Source: Crambe crambe
Lineage: Eukaryota > Porifera > Demospongiae > Poecilosclerida > Crambeidae
Length of the DNA stretch: 64,000 nt
Direction of reading: 5' to 3'
Assembly (NCBI GenBank): GCA_963924555.1
Contig: OZ004595.1
Location: forward strand, 5,884,599 to 5,948,598
Positions within the stretch are counted from its first letter, which is position 1; each line of letters starts with the position of its first letter. The position numbers were made by a program, and so were the translations under genes. Positions 12,901 through 52,960 of the stretch are shown here, piece by piece. Below the pieces are notes generated by a model. That model was not told the origin of the DNA. It was given only the letters and a program-made list of their open reading frames with translations, and made no database searches.

Positions 12901-15381
12901 TTGAGTTGTGGACCTGTTTCCCCTTGTGAGTTTTAAATGGAAACTTGTGAATGGTATTGTTGTGACTGTGTGGTTTTATTTGCAGCTGTTCGTCCCAGCC
13001 CACACACTCCTGGTACAATGCTGCCGGTCGTAAGGCTGCCAACTGCTGCTCAACCAACTACTTGTCCTACTACTCGACCGACTACTCGACCGACTACTCG
13101 TCCTACAATTCGTCCTACAACTCAACCAACTACTCGTCCCACTACTCAACCAACTACTCGTCCTACAACTCAAGGAATAACTGATCCGATAATCACAACA
13201 TCTTCTCCCACTGTGTGTGGCGGAGTGCTGTCCGAGTCCTGGGGGACACTCCAATCACCACACTGGCCTAATATCACGTACCCTAATAACATCGATTGTG
13301 AGTGGACCATCGAATGTGGCGAGGGTAGTCTCATAAATGTCACTTTTCATGAGAATTTCAGAATTGCAGGACCAATGCCGAATTGTCCGAAAGATACGGT
13401 TAAAGTTGTTGATTGCAAGGGGCAGATTTATGGTCCGTATTGCCAGCTCATTGCTCCGCAACCAATCACAGGACTCTGTAGCTCAGTGCGAGTTCTTTTC
13501 CATGCTGGACCCTCACACTCTCCCAGACGGACAGGGTTCAGCATCAGTTACATGTGTGAGGGCGGGCCTACTACCCGCCCACCAGCAACCACTCGACCTT
13601 CTACTTTACCAACTACTCGTCCTGAAGCTTCACCAACTACTCATCCTATAACTTTACCAACTACTCATCCTATAACTTTATCGACTACTCGTCCTACAAC
13701 TTTGCCAACTACTCGTCCCACTACTCAACCAACTACTCGTCCTACAACTCAAGGAATAACTGATCTGATAATCACAACATCTTCTCCCACTGTGTGTGGC
13801 GGAGTGCTGTCCGAGTCCTGGGGGACACTCCAATCACCACACTGGCCTAATATCACGTACCCTAATAACATCGATTGTGAGTGGACCATCGAATGTGGCG
13901 AGGGTAGTCTCATAAATGTCACTTTTCATGAGAATTTCAGAATTGCAGGACCAATGCCGAATTGTCCGAAAGATACGGTTAAAGTTGTTGATTGCAAGGG
14001 GCAGATTTATGGTCCGTATTGCCAGCTCATTGCTCCGCAACCAATCACAGGACTCTGTAGCTCAGTGCGAGTTCTTTTCCATGCTGGACCCTCACACTCT
14101 CCCAGACGGACAGGGTTCAGCATCAGTTACATGTGTGAGGGCGGGCCTACTACCCGCCCACCAGCAACCACTCGACCTTCTACTTTACCAACTATTCGTC
14201 CTGAAACTTCACCAACTACTCGTCCCGAAACTTTGCCAACTACTCATCCTACAACTTTACCAACTACTCATCCTACAACTTTATCGACTACTCGTCCTAC
14301 AACTTTGCCAACTACTCGTCCCACTACTCAACCAACTACTCGTCCTACAACTCAAGGAATAACTGATCTGATAATCACAACATCTTCTCCCACTGTGTGT
14401 GGCGGAGTGCTGTCCGAGTTCTGGGGGACACTCCAATCACCACACTGGCCTAATATCACGTACCCTAATAACATCGATTGTGAGTGGACCATCGAATGTG
14501 GCGAGGGTAGTCTCATAAATGTCACTTTTCATGAGAATTTCAGAATTGCAGGACCAATGCCGAATTGTCCGAAAGATACGGTTAAAGTTGTTGATTGCAA
14601 GGGGCAGATTTATGGTCCGTATTGCCAGCTCATTGCTCCGCAACCAATCACAGGACTCTGTAGCTCAGTGCGAGTTCTTTTCCATGCTGGACCCTCACAC
14701 TCTCCCAGACGGACAGGGTTCAGCATCAGTTACATGTGTGAGGGCGGGCCTACTACCCGCCCACCAGCAACCACTCGACCTTCTACTTTACCAACTACTC
14801 GTCCTGAAACTTCACCAACTACTCGTCCCGAAACTTTGCCAACTACTCATCCTACAACTTTACCAACTACTCATCCTACAACTTTATCGACTACTCGTCC
14901 TACAACTTTGCCAACTACTCGTCCTACAACTTTATCGATTACTCGTCCTACTCATACAACTTCTTCCCTTATTACAACACCAAGTCTGATTACTCGTCCT
15001 GAACCAACTTCATCATGTGGAGGTGTGGTTTCTGGACCCAGTGGCACCATACAGTCACCAAACTGGCCAAATGAGACATACCCGACAAATATCCATTGCA
15101 ACTGGAGCATTGAATGTGTTGGACAACATATAAGCATCAATTTTGACCCCATCTTCAGAGTAGCGGGCCAGATGCCAGACTGTCCTAAAGACACGGTCAA
15201 AGTTATTGATTGCAGGGGTCGTGTTTATGGCCCCTACTGTCACCTGACTGCACCTCGGCCAATCACAGGACTCTGTAGTTCAGCGAGGGTTGCTTTCCAT
15301 GCTGGGCCAGTCCATGGGCATACTCGAACTGGCTTTAGAATTAGCTATAATTGTGTGACACTGCTAGCTAATTCCTTTTGA
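9964..15381 (+). CDS. Astacin A: secreted astacin metalloprotease with CUB-EGF-EGF-(TP stalk-CUB)x4
   Basis: Predicted exons 9964-10102, 10172-10333, 10677-10800, 10863-11233, 11476-11701, 11891-12102, 12338-12454, 12794-12925 and 12986-15381 give about 1292 residues. The ATG at 9964 opens a signal peptide ([18 protein letters not shown]). A short propeptide carries FEHDGDM (aspartate-switch region) and a basic site RRKRNAV, just before the mature N terminus ([11 protein letters not shown]). The zinc site is [13 protein letters not shown] and the Met-turn SIMHY. CUB1 is split over two exons, followed by two EGF modules (DINEC.., DVNEC..). The single large last exon carries Thr-Thr-Arg-Pro stalks and CUB domains at about residues 570-690, 765-880, 965-1080 and 1170-1292; the first three of these are nearly identical. 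It should be a secreted zinc endopeptidase with a long glycosylated adhesive tail. The substrate is unknown. It is tail-to-tail with CUB-A. Confidence 0.88.
11351..11466 (+). repeat. Extreme polypyrimidine tract inside intron 4 of astacin A
   Basis: About 115 bases made almost only of C and T (CCTCCC-type repeats) directly precede the acceptor CATTCAAG at 11475. The tract reads as a proline-rich frame on one strand and a Glu/Gly-rich frame on the other, but neither is needed: the CUB1 exon joins in frame from 11476. It therefore serves as, or replaces, the 3' splice-site pyrimidine tract. Confidence 0.7.
13201..14757 (+). repeat. Three near-identical CUB-coding units in the last exon of astacin A
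   Basis: Units of about 360 bp start at 13201, 13780 and 14383 (spacing 579 and 603 bp). By eye they differ at essentially one coding position (SESWGT versus SEFWGT); the intervening TTRP stalks vary in length and in a few codons. The fourth CUB (from about 15016) is clearly diverged. Silent positions are also conserved, pointing to recent unequal exchange or gene conversion. Confidence 0.85.
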
Positions 15382-16335
15382 CTCTCAGTGTTCAATTAGT
15401 TGAACTCATGGAATGATTACAATAGAGATTGTCCTCTCTTTGGAGGCAAAAGTATCATGCATTGGTATGGTAGCTTAGCTAGCTAGCTAGCTAGCTAGGT
15501 AGGTAGTTATCGCGCGTGCTAGCACTGTGCGCACGTGCGCTAGCTATGCGCGTGCGTGCCATGCATGCCCGCGCGAGCGAGCCGGCCGGGCCTAGAAAGA
15601 GCGGGAAATTTAAAATAAAGTAGAGGTGCAGGTGACCTCGAACGACAAACTTCATGCTGAAACTTCTTACGTTTACCACTCTCCTTCTCTTCTTCTTCTC
15701 ATGAGGTTACTTAGCTAGCTACTTACTTACTTACACTTATCTTTAGTTATAGTAAAGTATCATAACTTGGGAAATTTGTCCCAATTTCTATGCCTAAGGA
15801 GGAGGAAGTAATACTATTAATACAAAACGTGGCACCTAACCTTATAGGTGGGGCCAGAAATGTTATTATTGTAATTAGTGTCTGGACTCCTCCTCCTTTG
15901 ATACTGGCTCACTCCATCTATGACTCTCCTGAATGCAAAGCACAGTCAGTCAACGTGCGATTCACCAGGAAGACCTTTTCTGTGTGACCAGCATGCTATT
16001 AGTTATGTTTCGAAATTGAGTTAATAACAGTCATGTTTGGAAATTAAAGAAAGTACGCGTTTGAATGTCCCCAGCCACCGTAATACATGCCTTTTTTTTT
16101 TCTTTTTCCAAAATTATCATAACACAAGATGCATACAAGCTAAGAGTATGAATTATACTAACTAGCTATATGCAGCTGCTACGTGTTGTGATGTTCTAGC
16201 TATACAAAATTTGTACAGTTGTTAGTTTTGCTGGGACTCAACTTCTTGATAAAGTTTGTGGGTTTAAAGTAATGGGGTCATTTTGAAGTGTAGTTTCTCA
16301 TGATTTGAAGATTCGACTTGAATCATGTGTATCTG
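15382..16335. other. Intergenic gap between astacin A and CUB-A
   Basis: The two genes converge here. It contains a (TAGC)n microsatellite at about 15474-15508, a CpG-rich purine/pyrimidine-alternating patch up to about 15600, and an AATAAA at about 15612 that could serve as the poly(A) signal of astacin A. From about 16085 the sequence belongs to the left unit of the 2.6-kb duplication. No gene is seen. Confidence 0.5.
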
Positions 16336-17587
16336 TTAGGCAGTTGTACATTTATAGTTCAATCGGAAACCAGTACGAGTGATCCCTCGTCCTGATCTGG
16401 CACGAAAGGATACCCGAGCTGTATTGCAGTTGATTATAAGTGGCTCGGGAGCAGTCAGGTAACAGAAGGGGCCATAGAGTGCACCATCACAAGCGGAGAT
16501 TTCGAGTTGGTCCTTCGGACAATTAGGCATCTGTCCTGCGACTCTGAAGTTGCTTTCAAATGTTATTAGTATGTTGCTACTGCTAGCTGGACACTCGATG
16601 TTCCATGTGCAATTAATGTTGATCGGGTAAACTTCGCGGGGCCAGTTCAAGGTCTGAATGTGTCCTTTTGGATCACTGAGTGAGTAATCCCTGCACAGCA
16701 GTGACTGGGTGGGAGGGGCTGGAGAAGGAGTGGTGGGCGGTGCGGTGGGTGGTGTGGTGGGAGGTGTGGTGGGAGTGGTGGGAGTGGTGGGTGGTGTGGT
16801 AGGAGGTGTGGTGGGAGTGGTGGGTGGTGTGGTAGGAGTGGTGGGAGTAGTAAGAGGGGCTGTGGGAGTTGTGGGCGGTGTAGTGGGAGGGGTTGTGGGA
16901 GTTGTGAATGGTGTAGTGGAAGGTGTAGGAGTGGTGGGTGATGGCGTGGTCAAGCAGACTGTTGGAGTGGTGAAAACGCCTACCAGACACACATAGTGCA
17001 GTTTGAACCCAGTACGAGTGACTCCCCTAAGTGACCCCGCACGAAAAGACACACTAGCTCTATTGGAGTTGATCGTAAATGGCTGAGGGGCATAGAGGTA
17101 ACAAAAGGGTCCGTGCACTACACCATCACATGAAAGAATTTCAAGCTGGTCCTTGGGACAATCAGGCATCTGCCCTGCTACTCTGAAAATATGTTCGAAT
17201 GTGATTCGTATGATACCACCTGCTGGACACTCGATGTTCCATGTGCAGTTAACGTTGGTCGGGTAGACTTTGTCAGGCCAGTTCAGGGTCTGAATGGATC
17301 CCCTGAGGTTATCGAGTGTGCTTACTTTTTCACAGAGTGGTGACTGGTCTGCAAATAAATAAATAAATAAATAAATAAATAAAGATAATCATGCACATTG
17401 TTGGTTTTTTGAAAATTGTAATAGCTAGATAGTCATTGCTACTTTGCAGATAGCTATTATTGTCATTACTTTAACCTGTATCTGCTGAAGAGTCGGTGAC
17501 TTCTTCCTGAGCTATGCAGCAAGGATTGGTAAGTAGTGCAGCCAAAATGACTGTTGATCCTAGAAACATGAGGAGACTCTGAGCCAT
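16336..17587 (-). CDS. CUB-A: secreted protein with two CUB domains and a Thr/Pro stalk, no protease domain
   Basis: Two exons: 17476-17587 (ATG at 17587) and 16336-17348, about 374 residues. Exon 1 gives a signal peptide (MAQSLLMFLGSTVILAALL) and a short acidic tail ending DSSADT, which matches the end of astacin exon 1 in this cluster. The intron is phase 1. Exon 2 carries CUB ([19 protein letters not shown]... with [15 protein letters not shown]), a TTPTTPP stalk, then a second CUB ending [13 protein letters not shown]. No HExxH is present anywhere in the gene. The 5' splice site reads GTTAAAG, whereas the near-identical CUB-B has GTAAAG; the extra T should weaken it. The intron contains a TAAA-type microsatellite. 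Likely a secreted binding or decoy protein; function is not known. Identical architecture to CUB-B. Confidence 0.8.
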
Positions 17588-17674
17588 AGCTAACTTGATG
17601 TAAGTTGCAGATACAGGGCCAGTGATGTTATAAGCAGTTACCTTCCAGCTTGCTGTGGTAGCTAACTGTATTTT

Positions 17675-17682
17675 CTTTTATA
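17675..17682 (-). promoter_or_regulatory. TATA box of CUB-A
   Basis: TATAAAAG on the minus strand, about 88 bases before the ATG, preceded by GAGCACAAGCT. The same phrase stands before CUB-B, and a close variant before CUB-C. Confidence 0.55.
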
Positions 17683-18931
17683 AGCTTGTGCTCATGGCTT
17701 GCTTGATAGATTATGTAATTCAATATATCCACACAGTCAGACGATAAAAACAAAGATTGACTCTGTGATGAAAGAAAAGTAATTGCTCTGTGTAGGCTGT
17801 GTAATCGATTCATTATTCCATATAAAGAAGGTTAATGGATCTCTAAAAGAGTACCAAAAAAGGTCTTAACCACTTGAAACTTCCCCCTGGATTCAAGTTA
17901 GGTCTTAAACAGTAACCTAGGTGACAAAAGGTCTTAACCACTTGGAAACTTCCCCCTGGATTTTAAGAGTCCTGCAGCCAAATAAACAAGTTACTCTTAA
18001 ACAGTAACCTAGGTGAGATCACTAGAGGTTGCTAAGCAATGAAATCCTTTTAGCAATCATGACATATAAGGAAACTAGCTATGACAACAATTAAGTGTGA
18101 CAGCATTAATTTTTGTGGCTGCTATACCAGCCTAATTGTGTAGCCATAACCTTGCACCAGGCTCTTGTTTTTGTTCCCTCAGTCTGAGAGCATTGATACA
18201 AGGCGTAGCTGCCTGTCCACTTTTTCTAAAGAGTTCTGGACCCAATCAAAGACTCACTAACTTAACTAATATCATGGAAAATACCTTTAGCCCTGTCCTG
18301 CTGAAAATTTCTAGTTACATAGTTACATCTGCTATCGAGCAAGAAATCAACACACAATACCTCACAAGAAACACCTGTGCAGTTAATTTGCTGCATGAGT
18401 GAATGTATAAGCTAGTTAAGTAGCGACAAAACTCTGTGTTTTTTGCTTGTTGCAATTGAATTAGGCTACGGATAGTAACTTGATACAGGATGAAAGAGTT
18501 AACTGTTATCTAGCGCAGGCTTTATTATTGTGGAATTACACTCATAATAGGTGATTGATTAAGGTCAATGGATCACCATTACTTACTAAGAAGTCTCCCC
18601 CAAGCTAATAAATGGATCGCCATTACTAACTAAGAGCTCTGAAAGAATTCTCCCCCAGGCTAAATAACATTGATGTAATTGGTCATGCCTTTTTTTCCTT
18701 TCATTCTTCTTTTTCCAAAATCATCATAACACAAGATGCATACAAGCTAAGAGTATGAATTATACTAACTAGCTATATGCAGCTGCTACGTGTTGTGATG
18801 TTCTAGCTATACAAAATTTGTACAGTTGTTAGTTTTGCTGGGACTCAACTTCTTGATAAAGTTTGTGGGTTTAAAGTAATGGGGTCACTTTGAAGTGTAG
18901 TTGAAGATTCGACTTGAATCATGTGTATCTG

Positions 18932-20203
18932 TTAGGCAGTCGTACATATGTAGTTCAATCGGAAACCAGTACGAGTGATCCCTCGTCCTGATCCGGCACG
19001 AAAGGATACCCGAGCTGTATTGCAGTTGATTGTAAGTGGCTCGGGAGCAGTCAGGTAACAGAAGGGGCCATAGAGTGCACCATCACAAGCGGAGATTTCG
19101 AGTTGGTCCTTCAGACAATTAGGCATCTGTCCTGCGACTCTGAAGTTGCTTTCAAATGTTATTTGTATGTTGCTGCTGCTAGCTGGACACTCGATGTTCC
19201 ATGTGCAATTAACGTTGATCGGGTAAACTTCACGGGGCCAGTTCAAGGTCTGAATGTGTCCTTTTGGATCACTGAGTGAGTAATCCCTGCACAGCAGTGA
19301 CTGGGTGGGAGGGGCTGGAGAAGGAGTGGTGGGCGGTGTAGTGGGTGGCGTGGTGGGAGTGGTGGGTGGTGTGGTGGGAGGTGTGGTGGGAGTGGTGGGT
19401 GGTGTGGTGGGAGGTGTGGTGGGAGTGGTGGGTGGTGTGGTGGGAGGTGTGGTGGGAGTGGTGGGTGGTGTGGTAGGAGTGGTGGGAGTAGTAAGAGGGG
19501 CTGTGGGAGTTGTGGGCGGTGTAGTGGGAGGGGTTGTGGGAGTTGTGAATGGTGTAGTGGAAGGTGTAGGAGTGGTGGGTGATGGCGTGGTCAAGCAGAC
19601 TGTTGGAGTGGTGAAAACGCCTACCAGACACACATAGTGCAGTTTGAACCCAGTACGAGTGACCCCCCTAAGTGACCCCGCACGAAAAGACACACTAGCT
19701 CTATTGGAGTTGATCGTAAATGGCTGAGGGGCGTAGAGGTAACAAAAGGGTCCGTGCACTACACCATCACAGGAAAGAATTTCAAGCTGGTCCTTGGGAC
19801 AATCAGGCATCTGCCCTGCTACTCTGAAAATATGTTCGAATGTGATTCGTATGACACCACCTGCTGGACACTCGATGTTCCATGTGCAGTTAACGTTGGT
19901 CGGGTAGACTTTGTCAGGCCAGTTCAGGGTCTGGATGGATCCCCTGAGGTTATCGAGTGTATTTACTTTTTCGCAGAGTGGTGACTGGTCTGCAAAAAAT
20001 AAAAAAAAATATAAATGATAATCATGCACATTGTTGAAAACTATTGATACTTTGCAGCTTTGCAGATAGCTATTATTGTCATGGTACACTATTACTTTAC
20101 CTGTATTTGCTGAAGAGTCAGTGACTTCTTCCTGAGCTATGCAGCAAGGATTGGTAAGTAGTGCAGCCAAAATGACTGTTGATCCTAGAAACACGAGAGC
20201 CAT
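18932..20203 (-). CDS. CUB-B: secreted two-CUB protein with Thr/Pro stalk (duplicate of CUB-A)
   Basis: Two exons: 20101-20203 (ATG at 20203) and 18932-19989, about 386 residues. The signal peptide (MALVFLGSTVILAALL) is shorter than in CUB-A because of a small deletion. The stalk is longer (extra TTPTTPP units). The two CUB domains differ from CUB-A by few residues, and the stop is at 18932. The 111-base intron is a multiple of three and has no stop in frame, so an unspliced message would still encode a continuous protein carrying 37 additional residues between signal exon and CUB. I prefer the spliced model because the donor is good (GTAAAG) and CUB-A and CUB-C have introns at the same point. 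The signal-peptide methionine was chosen over an upstream in-frame one at 20431 because the latter would bury the signal sequence and would start upstream of the TATA box. Confidence 0.8.
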   Translation of the reverse strand: MALVFLGSTVILAALLTNPCCIAQEEVTDSSANTGKVIVYHDNNSYLQSCKVSIVFNNVHDYHLYFFLFFADQSPLCEKVNTLDNLRGSIQTLNWPDKVYPTNVNCTWNIECPAGGVIRITFEHIFRVAGQMPDCPKDQLEILSCDGVVHGPFCYLYAPQPFTINSNRASVSFRAGSLRGVTRTGFKLHYVCLVGVFTTPTVCLTTPSPTTPTPSTTPFTTPTTPPTTPPTTPTAPLTTPTTPTTPPTTPTTPPTTPPTTPTTPPTTPPTTPTTPPTTPPTTPTTPPTTPPTTPSPAPPTQSLLCRDYSLSDPKGHIQTLNWPREVYPINVNCTWNIECPASSSNIQITFESNFRVAGQMPNCLKDQLEISACDGALYGPFCYLTAPEPLTINCNTARVSFRAGSGRGITRTGFRLNYICTTA

Positions 20204-20292
20204 AGCTAACTTGATATAAGTTGCAGATACAGGGCCAGTGATGTTATAAGCAGTTACCTTCCAGCTTGCGGTGGTAGCTAACTGTATTTTTG

Positions 20293-20300
20293 CTTTTATA
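20293..20300 (-). promoter_or_regulatory. TATA box of CUB-B
   Basis: TATAAAAG on the minus strand, about 90 bases before the ATG, in the same context as the CUB-A box. Confidence 0.55.
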
Positions 20301-21726
20301 AGCTTGTGCTCATGGCTTGCTTGATAGATTATGTAATTCAATATATCCACACAGTCAGACAATAAAAACAAAGATTGACTCTGTGATGAAAGAAAAGTAA
20401 TTGCTCTGTGTAGGCTGTGTAATTGATTCATTATTCCATATAAAGAGGGTTAATGGATCTCTAAAAGAGTACCAAAAAAGGTCTTAACCACTTGAAACTT
20501 CCCCCTGGATTCAAGTTAGGTCTTAAACAGTAACCTAGGTGACATCACCTAAAAAGGTCTTAACCACTTGGAAACTTCCCCCTGGATTTTAAGAGTCCTG
20601 CAGCCAAATAAACAAGTTACTCTTAAATAGTAACCTAGGTGAGATCACTAGAGGTTGCCAAGCAATGAAATCCTTTTAGCAATCATGACATATAAGGAAA
20701 CTAGCTATGACAACAATTAAGTGTGGCAGCATTAATTTTTATGGCTGCTATGTATACCCCATCCTAATTGTGTAGCCATAGCCTTGCACCAGGCTCTTGT
20801 TTTTGTTCCCTCAGTCTGAGAGCATTGATACAAGGTATAGCTGCCTGCCCACTTCTTCTAAAGAGTTCTGGACCCAATCAAAGACTCACTAACTTAACTA
20901 GCTAATATCATGGAAAATACCTTAGCCCTGTCCTGCTGAAAATTTCTAGTTACATAGTTACATCGCTATTATAACAACTTGATAGCCAAGTACATGTGCA
21001 ACTCATAACTCATGTATTGAACAAGAAATCAACACACAATACCTCACAAGAAACACCTGTGCAGTTATTTGCTGCATGAGTGAATGTATAAGCTAGTTAA
21101 GTAGCGACAAAACTCTGTGTTTTTTGCTTGTTGCAATTGAATTAGGCTACGGATAGTAACTTGATACAGGATGAAAGAGTTAACTGTTATCTAGCGCAGG
21201 CTTTATTATTGTGGAATTACACTCATAATAGGTGATTGATTAAGGTCAATGGATCACCATTACTTACTAAGAAGTCTCCCCCAAGCTAATAAATGGATCG
21301 CCATTACTAAGAGCTCTGAAAGAAGTCTCCCCCAGGCTAAATAACATTGATGTAATTGGTCATAATTATAGCTACACTGTAATATACAAAGAGGAGTGTG
21401 AGCAATGACAACCGCAGTCACAGCTCATGAAATTCTAGCCCCTCTTTTATTAATACACTGGTATAGGAACAGGGGCAGCCAGGGTGACCACGGCCACCCT
21501 AGTTAAAAGTCATTGATCACTTACATTGTAGTTACTCACAAACTACCCACATGCTTTGAGCTAGAAACTGGAATTAGCTATAGTTATGTCACTAAAGCAA
21601 AGTAATTTTTTAAAGTACACAACTGGAATCTTTAGACTCTCAGGGTTAGCATAATGCCCTTAGGCTACTAGCTAATGGACCAGGACTAGTTACTTGGTAT
21701 AAGATGAGACTCTAAAAGCAGTTATA

Positions 21727-21832
21727 GATACCACAGCAAGCTGGAAGGTTTATGACATCACTGGCCTTGTTCCACATCAAGTTAGCTAGCTATCATGGCT
21801 CAGAGTCTCTTCATGTTTCTAGGATCATAAAT
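21727..21832 (+). pseudogene. Inverted relic of a CUB-gene signal-peptide exon
   Basis: Read on the plus strand this matches the 5' end of CUB-A on the minus strand: leader phrase ACCACAGCAAGCTGGAAGG, then ATG at 21795 with MAQSLFMFLGS followed at once by a stop codon (TAA). The remainder of the gene is absent. It is a broken, inverted copy within the decayed third repeat region. Confidence 0.7.
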
Positions 21833-22039
21833 GTGTACTTACTGTTATGCACCACTGTAGCTAATTCTTATAGCTAAGTGGCCACACCAAAAAAAGGGGA
21901 GGGGGGCATGCCCCCTCCTAGATCCGCCACTGAATTAGCTTGGTCTTAGTTAGTAACGACAATCAACTTAACTTCTTTCAGAGCTCGATCCATTCCTTTC
22001 AGAGCTCATAGTAAGTAATGATGGTTCATTGACTCACCT

Positions 22040-22197
22040 ATTATGAGTATGGCTTGATAGATCAATTGTGATGAAAGAAAAGTAATTGCTCTGTGTAGAC
22101 AGTCCAATTGACTTTTATTTGGTGATTTATAGAGGCTTCACGGATCTCTATCACTGCACTTGTACCAAAAGGTCTTAGCTGGCTTGAAATCCCCCCT

Positions 22198-22241
<44 letters not shown>

Positions 22242-22935
22242 CACGTAGATACTGATCATAGAGGCACTAGAGATTGCTAGCTAAGTAATCCTTTGAGTTG
22301 GTTACCATGATAGCTTACAACCCCTTCATTATCACAAGACTGTAGGAAACAAAATCAAATTGGAGAGGCCTTGGGTGTGGTTACCTTTGAGCAGCTTCGT
22401 GACTATCGTGGCTAATAGCGAATGAACTTTTTTCAGTTCTTGCCAAAAAAGTGGTGAGGCCATGGCATCTGTGGCCACTGTGCTATGGCCCTGTTCAATA
22501 CTAGATATGACAACATAATTATTAGTGAGCTTGAGCTTGATTTCTCGTAACGTCACGATAACCATGCACATGTGCTTGGCACACACAAAACAACAACAAC
22601 AACAAAAAAACAACAACAAAAAAACAACAACAACAAAGCTGTAGCTAACAGTGATAATGACTTCAAAATGAGCTGTCACTTGCAAGTCTCAAGTTAATTA
22701 TCGCAAAGTGTGTTTTTGCTTGTCCCAATTGAGTTAGGCTACTATTATGGTGACCAAACCGTTAATTTATCAAGTGTAAACTTCATTCATACTTATAATA
22801 GGTGATTTATTAAGGTCAATGAGCCACTATGAAAGGAGTCTCCCCCAGGTCAGCAAGACCATTACTAAAGAAGTCTCCCCCAAGCTAATAAATAACTTTT
22901 ATGACTCAATGACTGTGACTGGTCGTATTACCTAT
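22040..22935. repeat. Decayed third copy of the CUB-gene upstream flank
   Basis: Collinear blocks match the upstream DNA of CUB-A and CUB-B: GATGAAAGAAAAGTAATTGC near 22070, ACCAAAAGGTCTTA near 22164, GGTGATTTATTAAGGTCAAT near 22802 and AGTCTCCCCCAAGCTAATAA near 22873. Between them are a (CA)n run and an inserted block with a CAACAA-rich stretch. The coding part that should lie to the left is missing except for the inverted relic at 21727-21832. The remaining sequence up to CUB-C shows no gene. Confidence 0.65.
22201..22236. repeat. (AC)n microsatellite
   Basis: About 18 uninterrupted AC dinucleotides within the decayed third duplication copy. Confidence 0.9.
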
Positions 22936-23220
22936 AGCTGCACTACAATATTGTAATCAAGTATATAGTAGGAGTTAGCTAGCACTCCTTGAAGTAAGTC
23001 TCTGAGAGCTAATTCACTTCTTAGCTGCTATACATAATAAGTAGCTGAAGTGACCCACAATAATTCAATGCTAAAAGAATAGCATAAACAATAATAGTCT
23101 CATATCTAGCTAAAATCTGCAAAGGTTGAACAGAAAAGAAAACAAAAGATGGTGCTGATGCCATTTGAGTTAAATAGCATGGTCAGAAATAGTCAGTAAC
23201 TTATAGCTAAGTCAGTTCAT

Positions 23221-24341
23221 TCAAATGCATTGGTAATTCAATTTGAATCCAGTGCGACTCTTTCCACGGCTGCTTCCTGTATGAAATACCACATCAACTC
23301 TACTGCAGAATGTAGTAAGAGGTGGTGGGGCAGTCAAGTGGCAGAAGGGACCGAGGGTTTTCCTGCCATTCTGATCAAGTATGTAGAGCTGATCTTTCTC
23401 GCAAGCAGGCATATCCCCTGCAACTCTGAAGCGTTTTTCAAACGATATGAAGATTCGCTGAGAAGGCAAACAGTTGATGGTCCATCGACAGTTTATATTC
23501 AGGGGATAGGCTATATATGGCCAATTTAAAGTTTGAATGCTTCCATTCGATCGGCTTAAAAATTTATTTCCCCCTCCACAGATCATTTCTTGAGAGTGTG
23601 ACTGACCTTCTGCCTGTAATTGTGTAGAAGGGCAGATTGGAAGAGTTGTGGGAGTGGTGGAAGTAGTACTGGGAGGAGCTGTAGAAGTGGTGGGTGGTGT
23701 AGTGGGAGGAGCTGTGGGAGTGGTGATTTGACAGATGGTAGGATTTGCAAGAGCACCGATTATGCATTCATAGTTCAATTGGAAGCCAATACGACTGACC
23801 CCTCTCTTGGATCCTGCGTGGAACATCACCTGAGCCTTATTGGACGTGATCAGAAATGGCCGAGGAGCAGTCAGGTGACAGAAGGGACCATGCAGCACAC
23901 CACCACAGGATAAAATTTCGACCTGATCCTTACTGCAGGCAGGCATCCGTCCTGCTATTCTGAAGATGGGATCAAACGTAATTCGTATCGTATTCCCAGC
24001 TGGACACTCAATACTCCATGAACAGTTGACGTTGATAGGGTAGCTTTTATTGGGCCAGTTTAAGGTCTGGATGGATCCCTTTGGGGGGTTGAGTTGGTGC
24101 ACTACATTTCCACAGAGCAGTGAACGATCTGTTGAGAAGGGAAATAAAATCATGCATGCATGCACTGCATCAGAATCTCAGCTAGTTAGTGGCTATAGTT
24201 AGCTGCATAGCTATAATTCTTACTTGTATCTGCGAAGGATTCAGCCACTGTTGGCACTTTCTCTTCCTGTGCTATGCAGCAGTTGTCGTTAAGCAGCAAT
24301 GCAAGTAGCATTGTAAAAATGGATAACTTTATGAGAACCAT
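23221..24341 (-). CDS. CUB-C: secreted two-CUB protein, no protease domain
   Basis: Two exons: 24224-24341 (ATG at 24341) and 23221-24128, about 341 residues. The signal peptide is MVLIKLSIFTMLLALLL, and the tail of exon 1 ends ESFADT with a phase-1 donor (GTAAGA), like the astacin first exons. Exon 2 carries one CUB ([16 protein letters not shown] .. [11 protein letters not shown]), a short Thr/Pro stalk, a linker CPSTQLQ, and a second CUB beginning ICGGGNK. The second CUB and the CPST linker closely resemble the C terminus of astacin B (CPSTPLQ.., ICGGGNKVL), so this gene looks related to the tail of B. The paralogs CUB-A and CUB-B are more distant. Secreted; role unknown. Confidence 0.8.
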
Positions 24342-25250
24342 AATTGGATAGTTCTTGTAGATATTGATGATCCTTGCAGATTTGTTTCCCTTGCAGCTTG
24401 GAAAATGCTGTGGTAGATGTGACTTTTATAGAGTTTGTGCTCGCTCCTAGCTTAATTGATGATTTTGATTGGTTACTTTTAACCAATTGGATTAGATATT
24501 GGATTCCATTGGTTGATAAACGGATGCCTAGGTGATTTGTAAAGTGATATTGGATGAAAGCAGAGTAATTAGCTAATGGAGGCCACATCATTACCCTCGT
24601 AATGGAGGACTTGCCATATATAGGAAGTTAAAGGACCTCTCTAAGTGCAACATCCGGGAAAAAGTCACCGAAAATGGTAGCTAGATGCATTATGGAACTT
24701 TAATATAAACAAAAGACACAGAGTCTTGTGTCTATAAGGAAATCTGAGAAATTGAAAACAATCTAATGACTTCTCTCGTCAGCCAGTCTCATCACCTTAT
24801 ATTGAATAAAAATATAAGCCATGAAAACCAATCATGTTGCTTGGCAACCATAATTCAAAGCAGGAAATTACCTCCCACCTTCCCATTCTCTCTCTGCACT
24901 GAAATTGATGGGCCAATGGCAGCAGTCCTGTGCCATGTTTAATTTATATGGAAGTTGGCATTGGCAATGCAATTTTAGTTACCTGGGTGGAGAGAGGTCG
25001 TGGATGATGGATGGGATTTATAGCATGTGAACATAGTAGCCTGGCCCTGCATAGTTACCATTGCATATTGCAGATATATGTATTATAAATGGCACACAAC
25101 TCTCAGTGACTATAGATTCTATACTATACTATATTATATAAACCAAGTCTCTAGATAAATAAGTCCAAAGGTTGATTCTAAGCTACTTTATGTTAGTGTT
25201 CATGTAACTTTACTAGAGAGAAACTAGTCATAATGTCCAATTCAATTGAG
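24342..25250. other. Intergenic gap upstream of CUB-C
   Basis: Apart from the CUB-C promoter, nothing is recognised. It is AT-rich unique-looking DNA with only short open frames. Confidence 0.4.
24423..24430 (-). promoter_or_regulatory. TATA box of CUB-C
   Basis: TATAAAAG on the minus strand, about 85 bases before the ATG, preceded by GAGCACAAACTC as in CUB-A and CUB-B. Confidence 0.55.
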
Positions 25251-28200
25251 TCAAATGCATCGGTAATTCAACTTGAAGCCAGTACGAGTCCTTCCACGAC
25301 CATTTCTTGTTAAAAACATCACATCAACTCTACTGCAGAAGGTCGTAATAGGCTGCGGAGCAGTCAAATGGCAGAAAGGACCAAAGCTCTTCCCTTCCTC
25401 ACCGTCAAATACATAAAGTTGGTCCTTATTACATACTGGCATTTGTCCTGCAATTCTGAAACGTTTTTCGAATGATATGAGGACTCGTTGTGAAGGCAAG
25501 CAATTGACGGTCCATCGACAGTTAATGTTCAAAGGATAAGCAACAAAGGGCCAGTTTAGGGATTGAATACTTCCAGTTGGTTGGGTCAAGACTTTATTAC
25601 CTCCTCCACAGATTGCTGACACAGATGCGTCTTGCAAGGGAGTAGATGGGCACTTTGGTGTTTCCACACATCTGTAGTTCAGCCGGAAACCAGTACGAGT
25701 TATTCCTCTCCCAGATCCAGCACGAAACGACACCTGAGATGTATTGCAGTTTGTCGTGATTGGCTGAGGAGCAGTCAGGTGACAGAAGGGGCCATACGAG
25801 ATGCCATTACAAGTGGAGATTTCAAGCTGGTCCTTGCTGCAAGCAGGCATCTGTCCTGCTACTCTGAAGTTGCGTTCAAATATAATTTCTACACTCTGCC
25901 CAGCTGGGCATTGGATATTCCATGAGCAGAAAACATTGATGGGATAGGCTCTATTAGGCCAGTTTAAGGTCTGGATTGATCCTCTGGAAGCACTGAGTTG
26001 CTGTTGCATTACATTTCCACAGAGAGGCGACTGACCTGGTGGCAGAGTGGTTGGTTGTTCTGTGACGGGAGGAGTGGTGGGAGGAGTTGTGGGACGAGGG
26101 GTTGTGGGAGGAGTGGTGGGAGGAGTTGTAGGACGAGGGGTGGTGGGAGGAGTTGTAGGACGAGGGGTTGTGGGAGGAGTGGTGGGAGGAGTTGTAGGAC
26201 GAGGGGTTGTGGGAGGAGTGGTGGGAGGAGTTGTAGGACGAGGGGTTGTGGTGGGAGGAGTTGTGGGACGAGGGGTTGTGGGAGGAGGAGTTGTGGGAGG
26301 AGGTGTGGTGGGAGGAGAGGTTGTAGAAGGAGGCAGGGTTGTAGGAGGGGTGGTGGGAGGAGGTGTGGTAGGAGTTGTGGGAGAGGTTGTAGGAGGAGGT
26401 GGGGTTGTAGGAGGGGTGGTGGGAGGAGGTGTGGTGGGAGGAGGGGTGGTGGGAGGAGGTGTGGTTGGAGGGGTGGTGGGAGGAGGGGTGGTGGGAGGAG
26501 GTGTGGTGGGAGGAGGGGTGGTGGGAGGAGGTGTGGTGGGAGGAGGGGTGGTGGGAGGAGGTGTGGTGGGAGGGGTGGTGGGAGGAGGTATGGTAGGAGA
26601 GGTTGTAGGAGGAGGTGGGGTTGTAGGAGGAGTGGTGGTGGGAGGAGGTGTGGTAGGAGAGGTTGTAGGAGGAGGTGGGGTTGTAGGAGGTGTGGTAGGA
26701 GAGGTTGTAGGAGGAGTGGTGGTGGGAGGAGGTGTGGTAGGAGAGGCTGTAGGAGGAGGTGGGGTTGTAGGAGGTGTGGTAGGAGAGGTTGTAGGAGGAG
26801 GCGGGGTTGTAGGAGACGTAGTGGGAGCCTGGATGGATGATGTCATTATTCTAGGGATGATTGTCCCTGGAGTTGTATCTAGTGGAGCAGATGCTGCATA
26901 CATGCACAAAGAGAGCCATAAGCTACAGCTAGATATTAGTATATAATAGGTACATACCTGGTCTAGTAGTCCCACAACTCAAACCATTAGCTTGCAGGAA
27001 AGATCCAACATTGCAGCTGCACGCGTAGGACCCTCCGAAGTTTGTGCATACCTGTTCACAGCCTCCATTGTCGAATGCACATTCATTTACATCTGCAATT
27101 CATATGATGATTAGCATCCTTTCTTCTCATTACAGCCTCCAATGTGACAACTAAATTCACACAATGGCCTCACCATAGCAGATATTTGCAGCCTCTGAGA
27201 GGTAGTAGCCTTCTCTGCAGTTGCAGGTATAAGATCCATCAGTATTCATGCAGTTGTGACATCTCATTCTGGTCTCAAGATCATCACATTCATTGATATC
27301 TGGATAATTTTAATTTTAATAATATAGATAGCTACAGATACTGGAACTCTCTTCTCTGAAATGTTTTTTTTGCCTAACACTTTTTCTCCATTGCAATTAA
27401 TGTTTGTTAATTCATCCCACACATGTCACTTTTTCTTACCCCAACGTGTCTACATTAAAAATCTCCACAGCTAGCTAGCTAGCTATGCATGGAATAACAG
27501 TACTGTATGCTACCATGTGGCATTGGAGGCATGTCTCAATGCTCTATATTTATTATTTTACTATGTGAAAAATCTAAGGTCTTTGCCTCCTCCTAGTAAC
27601 GGTCCTGAATTATGCACACATGCATATTTGGTTTCAGTGTGTATAACTAGTACCTTGTCTGTCATAAGCCATTCTAAGTCCTCGTACATCGGTTCTTGTG
27701 TTACGACCGTTGGTACGATAGTAAATGGTAATAGAAGGTCCGCTGATAGTTTTAATGAATCTTCCTTGCTCTCTTGTGCATATCCTATCATTAGGGAAGC
27801 CTAATCCTATCACATTGCCCGGTGATATGGACACTCCTTGAAAGAACTGAACAAAGTCCTCTGTGCATTGATCACTACAAAGAAAGATGAAATTAAGCAT
27901 GGCTAATAGAGTGAAACCAGACCACCCTCTGATGAGATTAAGCTCCACCCAACAACACTTGGCTATTCCAGCTATTTAAAATCTCCATGAACAGATGCCA
28001 TCACTATTTAAGGCCATTGGTCCCAATGATAATCAACCAGCCTGTTAATTTAGAAGTAACTCAAGCTAATTGGTTTAGAATATACATACATAGCAATAAC
28101 TACATACGGTATCCCATCCAATAATTTCAGCTAATTTGCTAATTTATGTCCTTACTTACAATACTACATGATACATAGTTACCTTGGGTCCAGGAAGAAC

Positions 28201-29901
28201 TCTGGCAGACTGAGCCTGAACTGGTAACCTCTTGTAGTTTGTAGTACAAAGGCACACTCCTGGTTAAACACATGATTGGGGAAGCCAGGAGACATAAAAA
28301 AGCCACTCCCATTCACAGTGATGACTTCGCCACAAGTGAGGCCACCCGGTAACTGAACCGGAGGTTCCTGTGGGACCACCACACTAGGAGGAGGGTGGGT
28401 GTCATGGGGACCTACATATACATAAGTACAAAGAAAGAATGATGTATACAATATGTATAGTAGTCATAGGAACCAAGCTATAGTGGAATTCTACTTTTGT
28501 GCTGCATGATCAATAGCTACATAAATTACATAATTGCTATAGTTACAATAAGGAATTGATACAAATATAACTGCCATTTAAGCAACAGTTCAAAGCTCTT
28601 TAAAGCTTTAAAGGATTCCTTCTTTCTTCTTTCACTAGCTACATTGCTAACTCCATCCACTGCTGCTACCCACTACCTATCAGATCATTTCAAAATGACA
28701 TACCACAATTGTAAAGGCGATTGCATTTAGCTACATCAAGTGGACTCAGCTCCTCTGCATCTCCCAGCGGGATGTTGGGCTGTCGTGAGATTACAGTCTC
28801 AGCAGTGGGGTTGATGGCAAACACCGAGGGCCCATAATGCATGATACTAGCAAAATCATAGCCAAGGTTGAGTGTGGTGGCGATACCTGGAGGAAGCATA
28901 GCATATTGAGATTCAGCTCCAGATAGAATATTGGACTCCATCACTCGAATGTAGTCATCTCGATCTCTGCGGCTGTGTTCATGGAAGAATCCAATAGCAT
29001 GTCCGATTTCGTGCACCACTACAGGAAAGTTCACACAGCCAGGACCGAGAGTAATGCCCTGTGGTTGACTTGTTCTTGCTCTCTTCCCAACAAAAGACTG
29101 GCATCTGAAGTGATTGGTTTCATATTGTTAGCTAAATTACACTGTGTGTGTATATATATTCTTGTAATGCAATGGTGGATTTCAATGGGGGTTTGAGGTT
29201 TGAATTTCATGGTTTCATCAAAGTGTGGACTGTGACCATGAAAATGTCATCCCACGAAACCCCCCAAAGTTATTACCCTAGCTAGTTAGTTATGTACTCA
29301 CACATTATTTGGTCCAGTGATAAACATAATGTAATCAGCTTCTGAGGTTCTGGGCCGGAAACGAATGCAAGTGAAGTCTTCCCAGTGCTTCATTCCTTGG
29401 AAGATGATCCTACGTTCAGCAGCTGCACACATTTGCATGCAATGATAGATCATGGAAAAAAATTAAAGTAATTTGGCAATATTCACTAACCAACATTAAT
29501 GATGGGAAATACTAACCATTGAAAATGCTTGCAATTTCGAAAGGAATAATTCCATTTGGCCAGAGTAGATTTGGGTTATCTACAGCATTTCGTCTATTTC
29601 TCCTTGGTCTTCCTTCACTCAATATGAAGGTCATGTCTCCAATTTTCTTGAAGTCCTCTATAATAATAATATTGTAAATAAATTTGCTAGTTAGCTTGAA
29701 GTTCTGATATCAAATTTGTATGCAGCTGAGAGCAAAATAAAAAATTTATTGCTGACATAATGTCATGCAGAATCTTTACTTACTTGAATCTGCAGATGGA
29801 TCCATGACCATCACCTCTTTCCGTGCTGCATGTTTCCTTTCTGCTGTGCAGCAGATGAGTAAAGATGCCAGCAACACACACATAGTAAGAGAAGTTGCCA
29901 T
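25251..29901 (-). CDS. Astacin B: secreted astacin metalloprotease, CUB-EGF-EGF-long TP stalk-CUB-CUB
   Basis: Exons in order: 29784-29901, 29517-29657, 29302-29422, 28704-29104, 28183-28411, 27654-27874, 27174-27299, 26958-27092 and 25251-26893, about 1044 residues. Signal peptide [15 protein letters not shown]; propeptide ends DPSADS and carries FKKIGDM; basic site PRRNRRNAV; mature start LWPNGIIPF. Zinc site [13 protein letters not shown], Met-turn SIMHY. CUB1 spans two exons (GPHDTHPPP.. and CTEDFVQFF..). Two EGF modules follow. The last exon opens [14 protein letters not shown] and then has about 260 residues of TTPPPTT-type stalk, the longest in the window, before two CUBs ([15 protein letters not shown] and [15 protein letters not shown]). 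The opposite strand has a long Gly/Val/Arg-rich frame over the stalk, which is an artefact of the repeat. A secreted protease with a mucin-like stem is likely. Confidence 0.88.
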
Positions 29902-51424: not shown

Positions 51425-52175
51425 TCTTTTTGGAACCTACGTTTCGGCTAGGTCTCTAGCCTTCTTCAGGGTTCTTATGATTATAAAAATTAAATAAACA
51501 AAAAAGATTTAAATTCAAATTTGCATGGCTAGAGGCTGTTTGAGTAAATAGCCTGTGGAGATTCTGTCTCTTGTCTTTGTTTTAGTGTTTTTATGGTTTC
51601 TATCCAGCATCCATGAATATCCAAACCCCCATCCCTGTTCAAAATGTCACTTGGTGTTTCACTTCTGATGTGTAAAGCCTCTTTCATTAATAGTTCAGTT
51701 TGGCTTCTTGCCCTGTCCACAATTGATGCTTCTTCCCACAATACCCTATGTCCTTCCACCCAGGCATGCTCAGCTATAGCTGACTTCTCCCACATTCCTT
51801 TCTCACATGCATCTATGTGTTCCTTCAATCTAGTTTCTAATCTTCTGACTGTTTCCCCCAAATAAAACTTGCCACATGAACAGGGAATCTTGTACACAAC
51901 CTTGGAATTCTTTTTCACTGGCAGCTTATCCTTCACCTTTGTTAGCTTATTCCTTAAAGTGCCATTAGATTTGAATGCTTCCTTAATGCCATATCTTCCA
52001 CAAACCCTCCTGATTTCTTCACTCTGACCTTCAACATATGGTATAGTTGTGTAGATTTTTTGGATATCTTCAGTTTGTGTGTTAACTTCCCTCTTGCTTC
52101 CCTCTTGCTGGTGAAGGACAAGCTGCCAGTGAAAAAGAATTCCAAGGTTGTGTACAAGATTCGTTGCGTTGTAAA
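51425..52175 (-). mobile_element. 5'-truncated Penelope-like retroelement with GIY-YIG endonuclease end
   Basis: The minus-strand frame from about 52095 to 51529 reads IYTTIPYVEGQSEEIRRV, then TLRNKL..KDKLPVKKNSKVVYKIPC, then GKFYLGETVRRLETRLKEH and ending KEALHI... This is the linker and GIY-YIG nuclease domain that ends Penelope-like reverse transcriptases. The reverse transcriptase itself is absent. At 52107-52165 the KDKLPVKKNSKVVYKI segment occurs again on the plus strand, so the broken 5' end is an inverted partial copy. The 3' tail carries a hammerhead-like motif (51431-51475). The GIY-YIG frame is intact, but the element cannot be active alone. Confidence 0.75.
51431..51475 (-). ncRNA. 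Candidate minimal hammerhead ribozyme motif in the retroelement tail
   Basis: Minus strand, 5' to 3': GAACC (51474-51470), CTGAAGA core (51469-51463), A, GGCTAG (51461-51456), loop AGAC, CTAGCC (51451-51446), GAAA (51445-51442), CGTA, GGTTC (51437-51433). GAACC/GGTTC pair as stem I and GGCTAG/CTAGCC as stem II. The conserved CUGANGA and GAAA boxes are both present, and UA before stem I fits a UH cleavage site. Stem III would be only one pair. One additional A sits between the core and stem II. Penelope-like elements are known to carry minimal hammerheads; activity here is unproven. Confidence 0.45.
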
Positions 52176-52960
52176 TTAATCACATGAAAATTAATTATAC
52201 CTGTACTTATATCTCCATGGAGACAAGAAAGCACAGCCGCTAAAGCGTCAAGGTAAAGTGTAGCTAGCCTATAGTCTATACTCGCCTTAGCTAGCTATAG
52301 CAGGATATAAAATAGTTATAACATGGGTGCCATGGATTTTATGGATTATAAACAACCCTTGCCCTTGGGCTGCGCCCTCGGGACTCAGGTTGTTTATAAC
52401 CCATACAACCCTGGCACCCATGTTATAACTATTACATAATAGTGTGTAAAAATTATAAGTAAGCTGTAACAACAGAAATGAAATTTCCCAATTTTATGGT
52501 CCTTCAGCAATGCTGAATTTTAATGAATTCAATTTTAGTAGTACTTGCAAAATTTTGCACCATCTTCTAGAAGATAGTCACATGCATGCATGCATACAAA
52601 CATGATGTAGCAATGTTTCATGCATGTGTGTTTAAAGTTTCTTCAGTGAGAGGATTAACACTTCTCTTTTTTATGGTTTTGTATTTTTTGAAGTATACTG
52701 TAGAATCAGAGGTGTCAAAATCAGAAGAACTGGTGACGCAATAGGAACTAAGTGGCACACTGCATATGCATGCATGGTGTCTACATGTCTGCAGTTTGAC
52801 CATGTGTGAATGTTTCCCCAAGTGATTAAATATGTAGGTGAAAATGGATGGACCATTTGACCCTTGCTATGCAGACACATACAAGGTAATGAGCATGTCC
52901 AATGTGTCAAGTGGTGTAAAAATATGACCCTATTAGTAGCTACAGCGATCGTGTTATTAA
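52170..52960. repeat. Direct repeat, right copy, flanking the Penelope-like remnant
   Basis: Second copy of 50780-51355, same orientation, enlarged by the fold-back at 52304-52440 and its flank. The following 52960-53468 has no recognisable gene. Confidence 0.75.
52304..52440. mobile_element. Fold-back element (AATAGTTATAAC family) inserted in the right direct repeat
   Basis: AATAGTTATAACATGGGTGC and its complement lie at the ends, with further pairing GGATTATAAACAACC / GGTTGTTTATAACCC and a GC-rich loop (GGGCTGCGCCCTCGGG). Absent from the left direct-repeat copy. Confidence 0.7.

Follow-up and report, generated by a model that had tools for sequence, protein, structure and literature searches.

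Three CUB-only genes of the sponge Crambe crambe probably descend from an astacin B-like gene that lost its protease

ADAMTSL proteins and papilin are secreted proteins that keep ancillary domains without a catalytic domain and may modulate ADAMTS proteases (PMC4448532), and an origin of ADAMTSL within ADAMTS fits a loss of the catalytic domain (PMC10499240). MAp44, which comprises CUB-bearing parts of a CUB protease but not the protease itself, displaces the MASP proteases (PMC7982787). BMP-1 is inhibited by the two CUBs of PCPE-2, an effect for which the CUBs of BMP-1 are required (PMC10696041). The portion of an astacin review considered here describes CUB/EGF astacins and names no CUB-only gene (PMC9848320); likewise, we found no CUB-only genes derived from astacins in the titles and abstract openings on this theme and in the few texts consulted beyond them. 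Here we describe three two-exon genes, CUB-A, CUB-B and CUB-C, from an astacin gene array of the sponge Crambe crambe. The window analysed is a stretch of 64,000 nucleotides (contig OZ004595.1, 5,884,599-5,948,598); positions are given in window coordinates, and the terminal exon of the CUB-only genes is called exon 2. Sequence comparisons suggest that a duplicate of an astacin B-like gene lost its protease and founded all three genes, a reading that we consider probable.

The CUB-only genes resemble ADAMTSL and papilin in keeping ancillary domains of metalloprotease relatives without the catalytic domain, but the protease family and the ancillary domains are different ones, and here the putative parent, the product, the exon border and the promoter still adjoin. 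Like MAp44 and MAp19, made from the MASP1 and MASP2 genes, they would represent a CUB-bearing protein part without its protease; MAp44 and MAp19, however, arise by alternative splicing, belong to serine proteases and keep the first domains, not the last. The TATA box and signal exon that every CUB-only gene has for itself speak against a MAp44-like splice form, though a read-through form may exist as well. PCPE-1 and PCPE-2 are also two-CUB proteins and act with CUB-bearing astacins; unlike the PCPEs (CUB-CUB-NTR), the three terminal exons showed no NTR domain in a Pfam scan, and no astacin domain (PF01400) either. Astacin, CUB and EGF modules occur together in the putative parent genes of the window, as in the BMP1/tolloid-like architecture, from which the CUB-only genes differ in having no protease.

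On the minus strand, the order of transcription is astG, astF, astE, astD, astC, astB, CUB-C, CUB-B and CUB-A; astA and astH lie on the plus strand. A further astacin, astI, is present on the same contig at about 5993.2-5995.9 kb (contig positions 5993300-5995919), some 45 kb past the window; it has an exon-1 tail as in the array astacins and a single tail CUB. The CUB-only genes lie on the minus strand and consist of a signal-peptide exon followed by a CUB-stalk-CUB exon, with the splice junction in phase 1 (Table 1). Exon 1 has 103-118 coding nucleotides and the introns have GT donors and AG acceptors. Splicing in silico gave products free of internal stops, of 374 amino acids for CUB-A (intron of 127 nucleotides), 386 for CUB-B (111 nucleotides) and 341 for CUB-C (95 nucleotides), whose putative signal peptides were called by eye. 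The donor of CUB-A is a poor one. The intron of CUB-B (20100-19990) is in frame and stop-free, and an unspliced product would read through it in a frame of 505 amino acids. AATAAA was found 405 nucleotides past the stop of CUB-B and 409 past that of CUB-C, and none of the searched polyadenylation hexamers within 700 nucleotides after the stop of CUB-A; both observations are uninformative.

The gene used for comparison, astB, has nine exons: one for the signal peptide, one for the propeptide and the start of the protease, two more for the protease, two for the halves of CUB1, two for EGF domains, and a last one, in which a TIIP box and a mucin stalk precede two CUBs. Exons 2-8 were bounded by eye from open frames. 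The donor of astB exon 1 and the acceptor of exon 9 are both in phase 1, just as the first-pass annotation had said of the outer junctions.

That annotation had also likened exon 1 of the CUB-only genes, with its tail and phase-1 donor, to astacin exon 1. In the eight astacins in which exon 1 was identified (all but astH), the tails read DPSADS, DPSADS, DPSADD, DPSADY, DPSADT, DPSADY, DPSADT and DPSAES. A matrix made from the 19 nucleotides before the donor in these eight genes was run on ten 10-kb control stretches of the same contig (100 kb, both strands), which served for the promoter as well. None of the 10,792 control GT sites equalled or beat the score of CUB-A or of CUB-B, and 5 did so for CUB-C; when we counted controls with an open phase-1 frame, the corresponding numbers were 0, 0 and 1 of 3,621. 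With a matrix of six astacins, in which near-duplicate pairs were represented by one member, we obtained 0, 0 and 2 of the 10,792 controls for CUB-A, CUB-B and CUB-C. Shuffled peptides matched as well in 2, 6 and 480 cases out of 20,000, respectively. CUB-C taken alone is therefore the weakest case, on account of its 5 controls and 480 shuffles. Its exon 1 and 5' untranslated region (5'UTR) align with those of CUB-A and CUB-B, with an exon-1 score of 67 versus 4-36 against the astacins.

We then consider the genome-wide counts of the exon-1 motif with its donor, which may be lower bounds. At least seven exact matches were observed, all of them, among the matches listed, astacins of the cluster, and none with the reversed pattern used as control. 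When one mismatch was allowed, at least 44 sites were found (10 with the reversed pattern), nine of them in the cluster, including CUB-A and CUB-B, and at least 35 outside it, ten of which are near-copies on one contig (C16). Judged by these comparisons, exon 1 of the CUB-only genes is homologous to astacin exon 1, beyond what any signal peptide would share with it.

A core promoter element is shared too. TATAAAA lies at -97 to -89 from the ATG in seven of the ten genes checked, namely the three CUB-only genes and astE, astF, astG and astI (the check left out astA, and astH with its exon 1 not identified). Only 1 of 828 control ATGs followed by 30 open codons had it in this slot, which was picked after seeing the genes. 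In astD the element is at -114; near -90, its exact form was not found in astB and astC, and it does not occur in the 130 nucleotides displayed for astA.

The join itself does not lie where the first-pass annotation had placed it. Exon 1 was said to be joined straight to the last astacin exon; in fact the CUB-only acceptor matches a CAG 858 nucleotides inside astB exon 9, after the mucin stalk. The idea that exon 2 corresponds to the terminal astacin exon thus stands for the phase and for the CUB part, but not for these 858 nucleotides, which have no counterpart. In CUB-A, CUB-B and CUB-C the acceptor AG begins 16 nucleotides ahead of the first CUB cysteine codon. The equivalent site of astB is CCACCAG/GTCAG, inside coding exon 9 and in phase 1, with its CAG at 26038-26036. 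Among the 13 astacin tail CUB starts examined (those of astE, astG and astH being left out), only the first of astB has an AG at this distance from the first cysteine. The 858 nucleotides are 76% pyrimidine and contain an AG-free run of 685 nucleotides, compared with a longest run of 214 in 20 control 10-kb strands. The matching CAG is the second AG after this run; the first is 24 nucleotides upstream and also in phase 1. Since the stalk is rich in pyrimidine and poor in AG, a deletion from intron 1 into it could expose a ready-made acceptor; alternatively, the CAG may mark an old exon border. The stalk repeat (25954-26946) also has long open frames on both strands, a by-product of the repeats.

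Table 1. Features of the CUB-only genes and of the corresponding parts of astB (window coordinates)
Feature	Position	Strand	Remarks
CUB-A exon 1, coding part	17476..17587	-	signal peptide and DSSADT tail, phase-1 donor GTTAAA; genome-wide motif match with one mismatch
CUB-A exon 2	16336..17348	-	CUB, TP-rich stalk, CUB, stop
CUB-B exon 1, coding part	20101..20203	-	signal peptide and DSSANT tail, phase-1 donor GTAAAG
CUB-B exon 2	18932..19989	-	CUB, stalk, CUB, stop
CUB-C exon 1, coding part	24224..24341	-	signal peptide and ESFADT tail, phase-1 donor GTAAGA
CUB-C exon 2	23221..24128	-	CUB ~24114-23764, stalk, CUB ~23580-23227, stop
TATAAAA of CUB-A	17676..17682	-	-95 from ATG
TATAAAA of CUB-B	20294..20300	-	-97 from ATG
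TATAAAA of CUB-C	24424..24430	-	-89 from ATG
astB exon 1 (comparison)	29784..29901	-	DPSADS tail, phase-1 donor
astB exon 9 (comparison)	25251..26893	-	TIIP box, mucin stalk 1 and two CUBs; nearest relative of CUB-C exon 2
astB exon 9 part without CUB-only counterpart	26036..26893	-	858 nucleotides, TIIP box and mucin stalk, ends at the CAG matching the CUB-only acceptor
Two tandem units holding CUB-A and CUB-B	16090..21363 (16090-18686, 18697-21363)	.	about 2.6-2.7 kb each, 91.6% over 2719 columns
Inverted, broken exon 1 relic of CUB-A/B type, with 5'UTR	21725..21827	+	76.9% to 17555-17664 over 117 columns; 11 codons, then a stop

The content of exon 2 was examined with Pfam. CUB (PF00431) matched two stretches in each gene, with 101.2 bits for CUB-A, 104.2 for CUB-B and 114.1 for CUB-C (cut-off 21.4); apart from the related CUB_2, which passed in CUB-B and CUB-C, no other family exceeded the cut-off in the terminal exons. 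An AlphaFold model of the CUB-C exon has two beta-rich domains and a low-confidence linker, and is of modest quality (mean pLDDT, the predicted local distance difference test, 63.5; pTM, the predicted template modelling score, 0.41). In the PDB, the first sequence match of CUB-C is cubilin (E 5.2e-23) and the second is PCPE-1 (E 1.9e-17).

We built a tree from 22 tail CUBs and two CUB1 domains, with a distant root. In it, the last CUBs of CUB-C and astB are sisters (support 100/99). A second group (83/93 on protein), which we call first-type CUBs, contains the first CUBs of CUB-A, CUB-B and CUB-C, the second CUBs of CUB-A and CUB-B, and the first CUB of astB; it nests among the tail CUBs of the astacins, the forks involved having supports of 89/87 to 93/92. 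Both CUBs of CUB-C nest in this way within the tail CUBs of astacins. CUB-C had been expected to group with astB for each exon, which is the case for its last CUB but not for its exon 1, closest to CUB-A and CUB-B. A topology that pairs the second CUBs of the CUB-only genes together and their first CUBs together, without astB, as a separate origin of the CUB exons would have it, was rejected by the approximately unbiased (AU) test (p-AU 1.8e-7 on DNA and 2.5e-10 on protein), a rejection that speaks mainly for CUB-C. As for the second CUB of CUB-A and CUB-B, we also tried it as the orthologue of the last astB CUB; on protein this gave p-AU 0.033 and a Shimodaira-Hasegawa p (p-SH) of 0.36, and on DNA p-AU 0.20. 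We did not retain it; this second CUB is probably another first-type CUB, although at the 5% level the protein AU test alone favours that view. The remaining arrangements of the first-type CUBs, three topologies, were indistinguishable in the topology tests.

The usual number of cysteines in a CUB is four. Within 12937-47548, many tail CUBs have 7 or 8 cysteines and others 4 or 5. The first CUBs of CUB-A, CUB-B and CUB-C have 7; missing from them is one cysteine that astB's first CUB retains, as does the second CUB of CUB-A and CUB-B. The idea of a dimer through a free cysteine was dropped: further cysteines, seen by eye in the stalks, could pair. On the plus strand, four CUBs are encoded in the last exon of astA (12937-15381). 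Three are identical or almost identical, as in a recent domain amplification.

The protease, CUB1 and EGF exons had been reported as missing, and we agree, given the Pfam scan and a tblastn search of 15400-25250. The queries, ten exon 2-8 peptides (seven from astB and three from astI) and the start of astB exon 9, all matched in an astC-astD positive control; in 15400-25250 no convincing relic was detected, four matches having E<=1 and the best E 0.036. The introns, in which relics of exons 2-8 might have been sought, measure 95-127 nucleotides.

From the similarity of their units, CUB-A and CUB-B are recent tandem copies. Besides the broken exon 1, the segment 22067-22903 resembles parts of the CUB-A/B unit, and a third unit has probably decayed here. 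The first CUB of CUB-A, compared with that of CUB-C, has a dN (non-synonymous divergence) of 0.24 and a dS (synonymous divergence) of 1.28, which suggests constraint. Of the changes that separate CUB-A from CUB-B, 9 are synonymous and 8 are not (p 0.0055). Elsewhere in the window, at 51529-52179 on the minus strand, a 216-amino-acid open frame looks by eye like a mobile-element fragment (GIY-YIG-like).

We propose the following course of events. An astacin B-like gene of the tandem protease array would have been duplicated, and the whole stretch between intron 1 and the interior of exon 9 would have disappeared from one copy, with the propeptide, the zinc protease, CUB1, the two EGFs, the TIIP box and mucin stalk 1. 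Promoter, signal exon and phase-1 donor would then have been left upstream of the CUB-CUB cassette, with splicing at an AG that has a coding counterpart in astB; as both join points are in phase 1, the reading frame would be kept. This CUB-only ancestor would have given CUB-C and, with a duplication and a remodelling of the second CUB, CUB-A and CUB-B. That the CUB-only genes come from an astacin gene whose protease, CUB1 and EGF exons were lost is well supported by the comparisons. Neither a similarity limited to a generic signal peptide nor a separate origin of the CUB exons, the two outcomes named in the first-pass annotation as contrary to it, was found in the exon-1, promoter and CUB tests. 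The CUB-only genes can be described, in terms of exon and domain ancestry, as protease-less paralogues of the ADAMTSL kind, which share this ancestry with the protease and do not have the catalytic part. What the sequence shows is the structure of the genes, the homology of exon 1, the geometry of the promoter and the relationship of the CUBs. The direction of the change and its occurrence as a single event are what we infer, together with the secretion, expression and function of the CUB-only genes.

Several observations weigh against this scheme. The direction would rest on one species and on nesting in a single tree, whose root is distant and whose forks are middling (89/87 to 93/92). The group of first-type CUBs has a support of only 83/93 on protein and 91.3/54 on DNA, and the second CUB of CUB-A and CUB-B is at odds with a simple descent from the CUB pair of astB. 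By itself, the exon-1 tail of CUB-C is only moderately above chance (5/10,792; 480/20,000) and two mismatches off the motif. The exon-1 scores give astB no special place: CUB-A scores best with astB (44), but the best astacin for CUB-C is astF (36). Exon 1 is too short for placement in a tree, and these are pairwise scores. The promoter may derive from an astacin other than astB, in which no TATAAAA is present near -90. Finally, exon 2 of CUB-A and CUB-B is 98.0% identical, and the flanks are 97.9 and 98.0% identical, with no excess conservation; the exon being as diverged as its flanks, this pair is weak evidence of function.

The promoter and the exon-1 scores are what a two-source chimera would explain, in which promoter and exon 1 come from one astacin of the array and the CUB exon from another, by unequal crossing-over instead of a deletion within a single gene. 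CUB-only genes share TATAAAA with astE, astF, astG and astI and not with astB, and their exon-1 scores do not single out astB. However, exon 1 is too short to be placed, and astB may have lost its TATA box later. This origin, which overlaps with loss from an astacin B-like duplicate, seems to us somewhat unlikely, although it is the alternative that fares best.

A reverse direction, in which a stand-alone CUB-CUB gene is older and astB gained its tail CUBs from it by recombination, would account for a CUB-only acceptor that lies where the CUB cassette begins, as well as for the silent CAG at that point in astB, as if an old exon border; it also fits the first CUB of astB, which differs in type from the first tail CUB of astC, astD and astF. 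On the other hand, the CUBs of the CUB-only genes and of astB nest among the tail CUBs of astA, astC, astD, astF and astI, and the CUB-only exon 1 bears the astacin exon-1 tail motif. We regard this direction as improbable.

It is slightly less probable still that the CUB-only exons double as alternative last exons of read-through transcripts of astB, with exon 8 spliced to CUB-C exon 2. The acceptor of astB exon 9 has the same phase as those of the CUB-only genes, and the genes lie head to tail about 0.9 kb apart, but the CUB-only genes each possess a TATA box and a signal exon of their own. We give equally little credit to the view that these are decaying pseudogenes in a duplicating array: the inverted broken copy of exon 1 nearby, the poor donor of CUB-A and the lack of better conservation of CUB-A/B exon 2 than of its flanks would agree with it, while three intact frames, a kept TATA box and a dN well under dS when the first CUB of CUB-A is set against that of CUB-C argue against it. 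A separate origin, from a generic signal peptide and an unrelated CUB gene, can practically be discarded: signal peptides converge easily and the CUB-C tail is weak alone, but the exon-1 matrix, the genome-wide motif, the CUB tree and the AU tests are all contrary.

If an astacin B-like duplicate did lose its protease, its descendants would be predicted to produce secreted CUB-stalk-CUB proteins with a TP-rich and probably O-glycosylated stalk, similar in kind to the tails of the protease siblings. Such proteins would most likely bind partners of the protease tails and might modulate the neighbouring astacins, through competition for substrates or CUB-CUB contact. The first-pass annotation had suggested that the products could be decoys, scaffolds or regulators of the protease siblings. 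By analogy with the systems described above, we put forward a role as modulators of these astacins only tentatively; plain matrix or mucus scaffolds would come next. The complete picture, in which a catalytic half was stripped off within its own array, mucin-stalk DNA served as a latent acceptor and an independent control circuit of the PCPE/MAp44 kind arose in an invertebrate, is in our opinion rather doubtful.

On the reading of protease loss from an astacin B-like duplicate, the array would show the step from a protease gene to a non-catalytic binding protein, with the parent, the product and a broken by-product still adjoining. It suggests a general route by which tail domains may be freed, the DNA of a mucin stalk acting as a latent acceptor. 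Should their products prove to act on the proteases next to them, the CUB-only genes of this sponge would be an independent case of the principle seen in PCPE, MAp44 and ADAMTSL.

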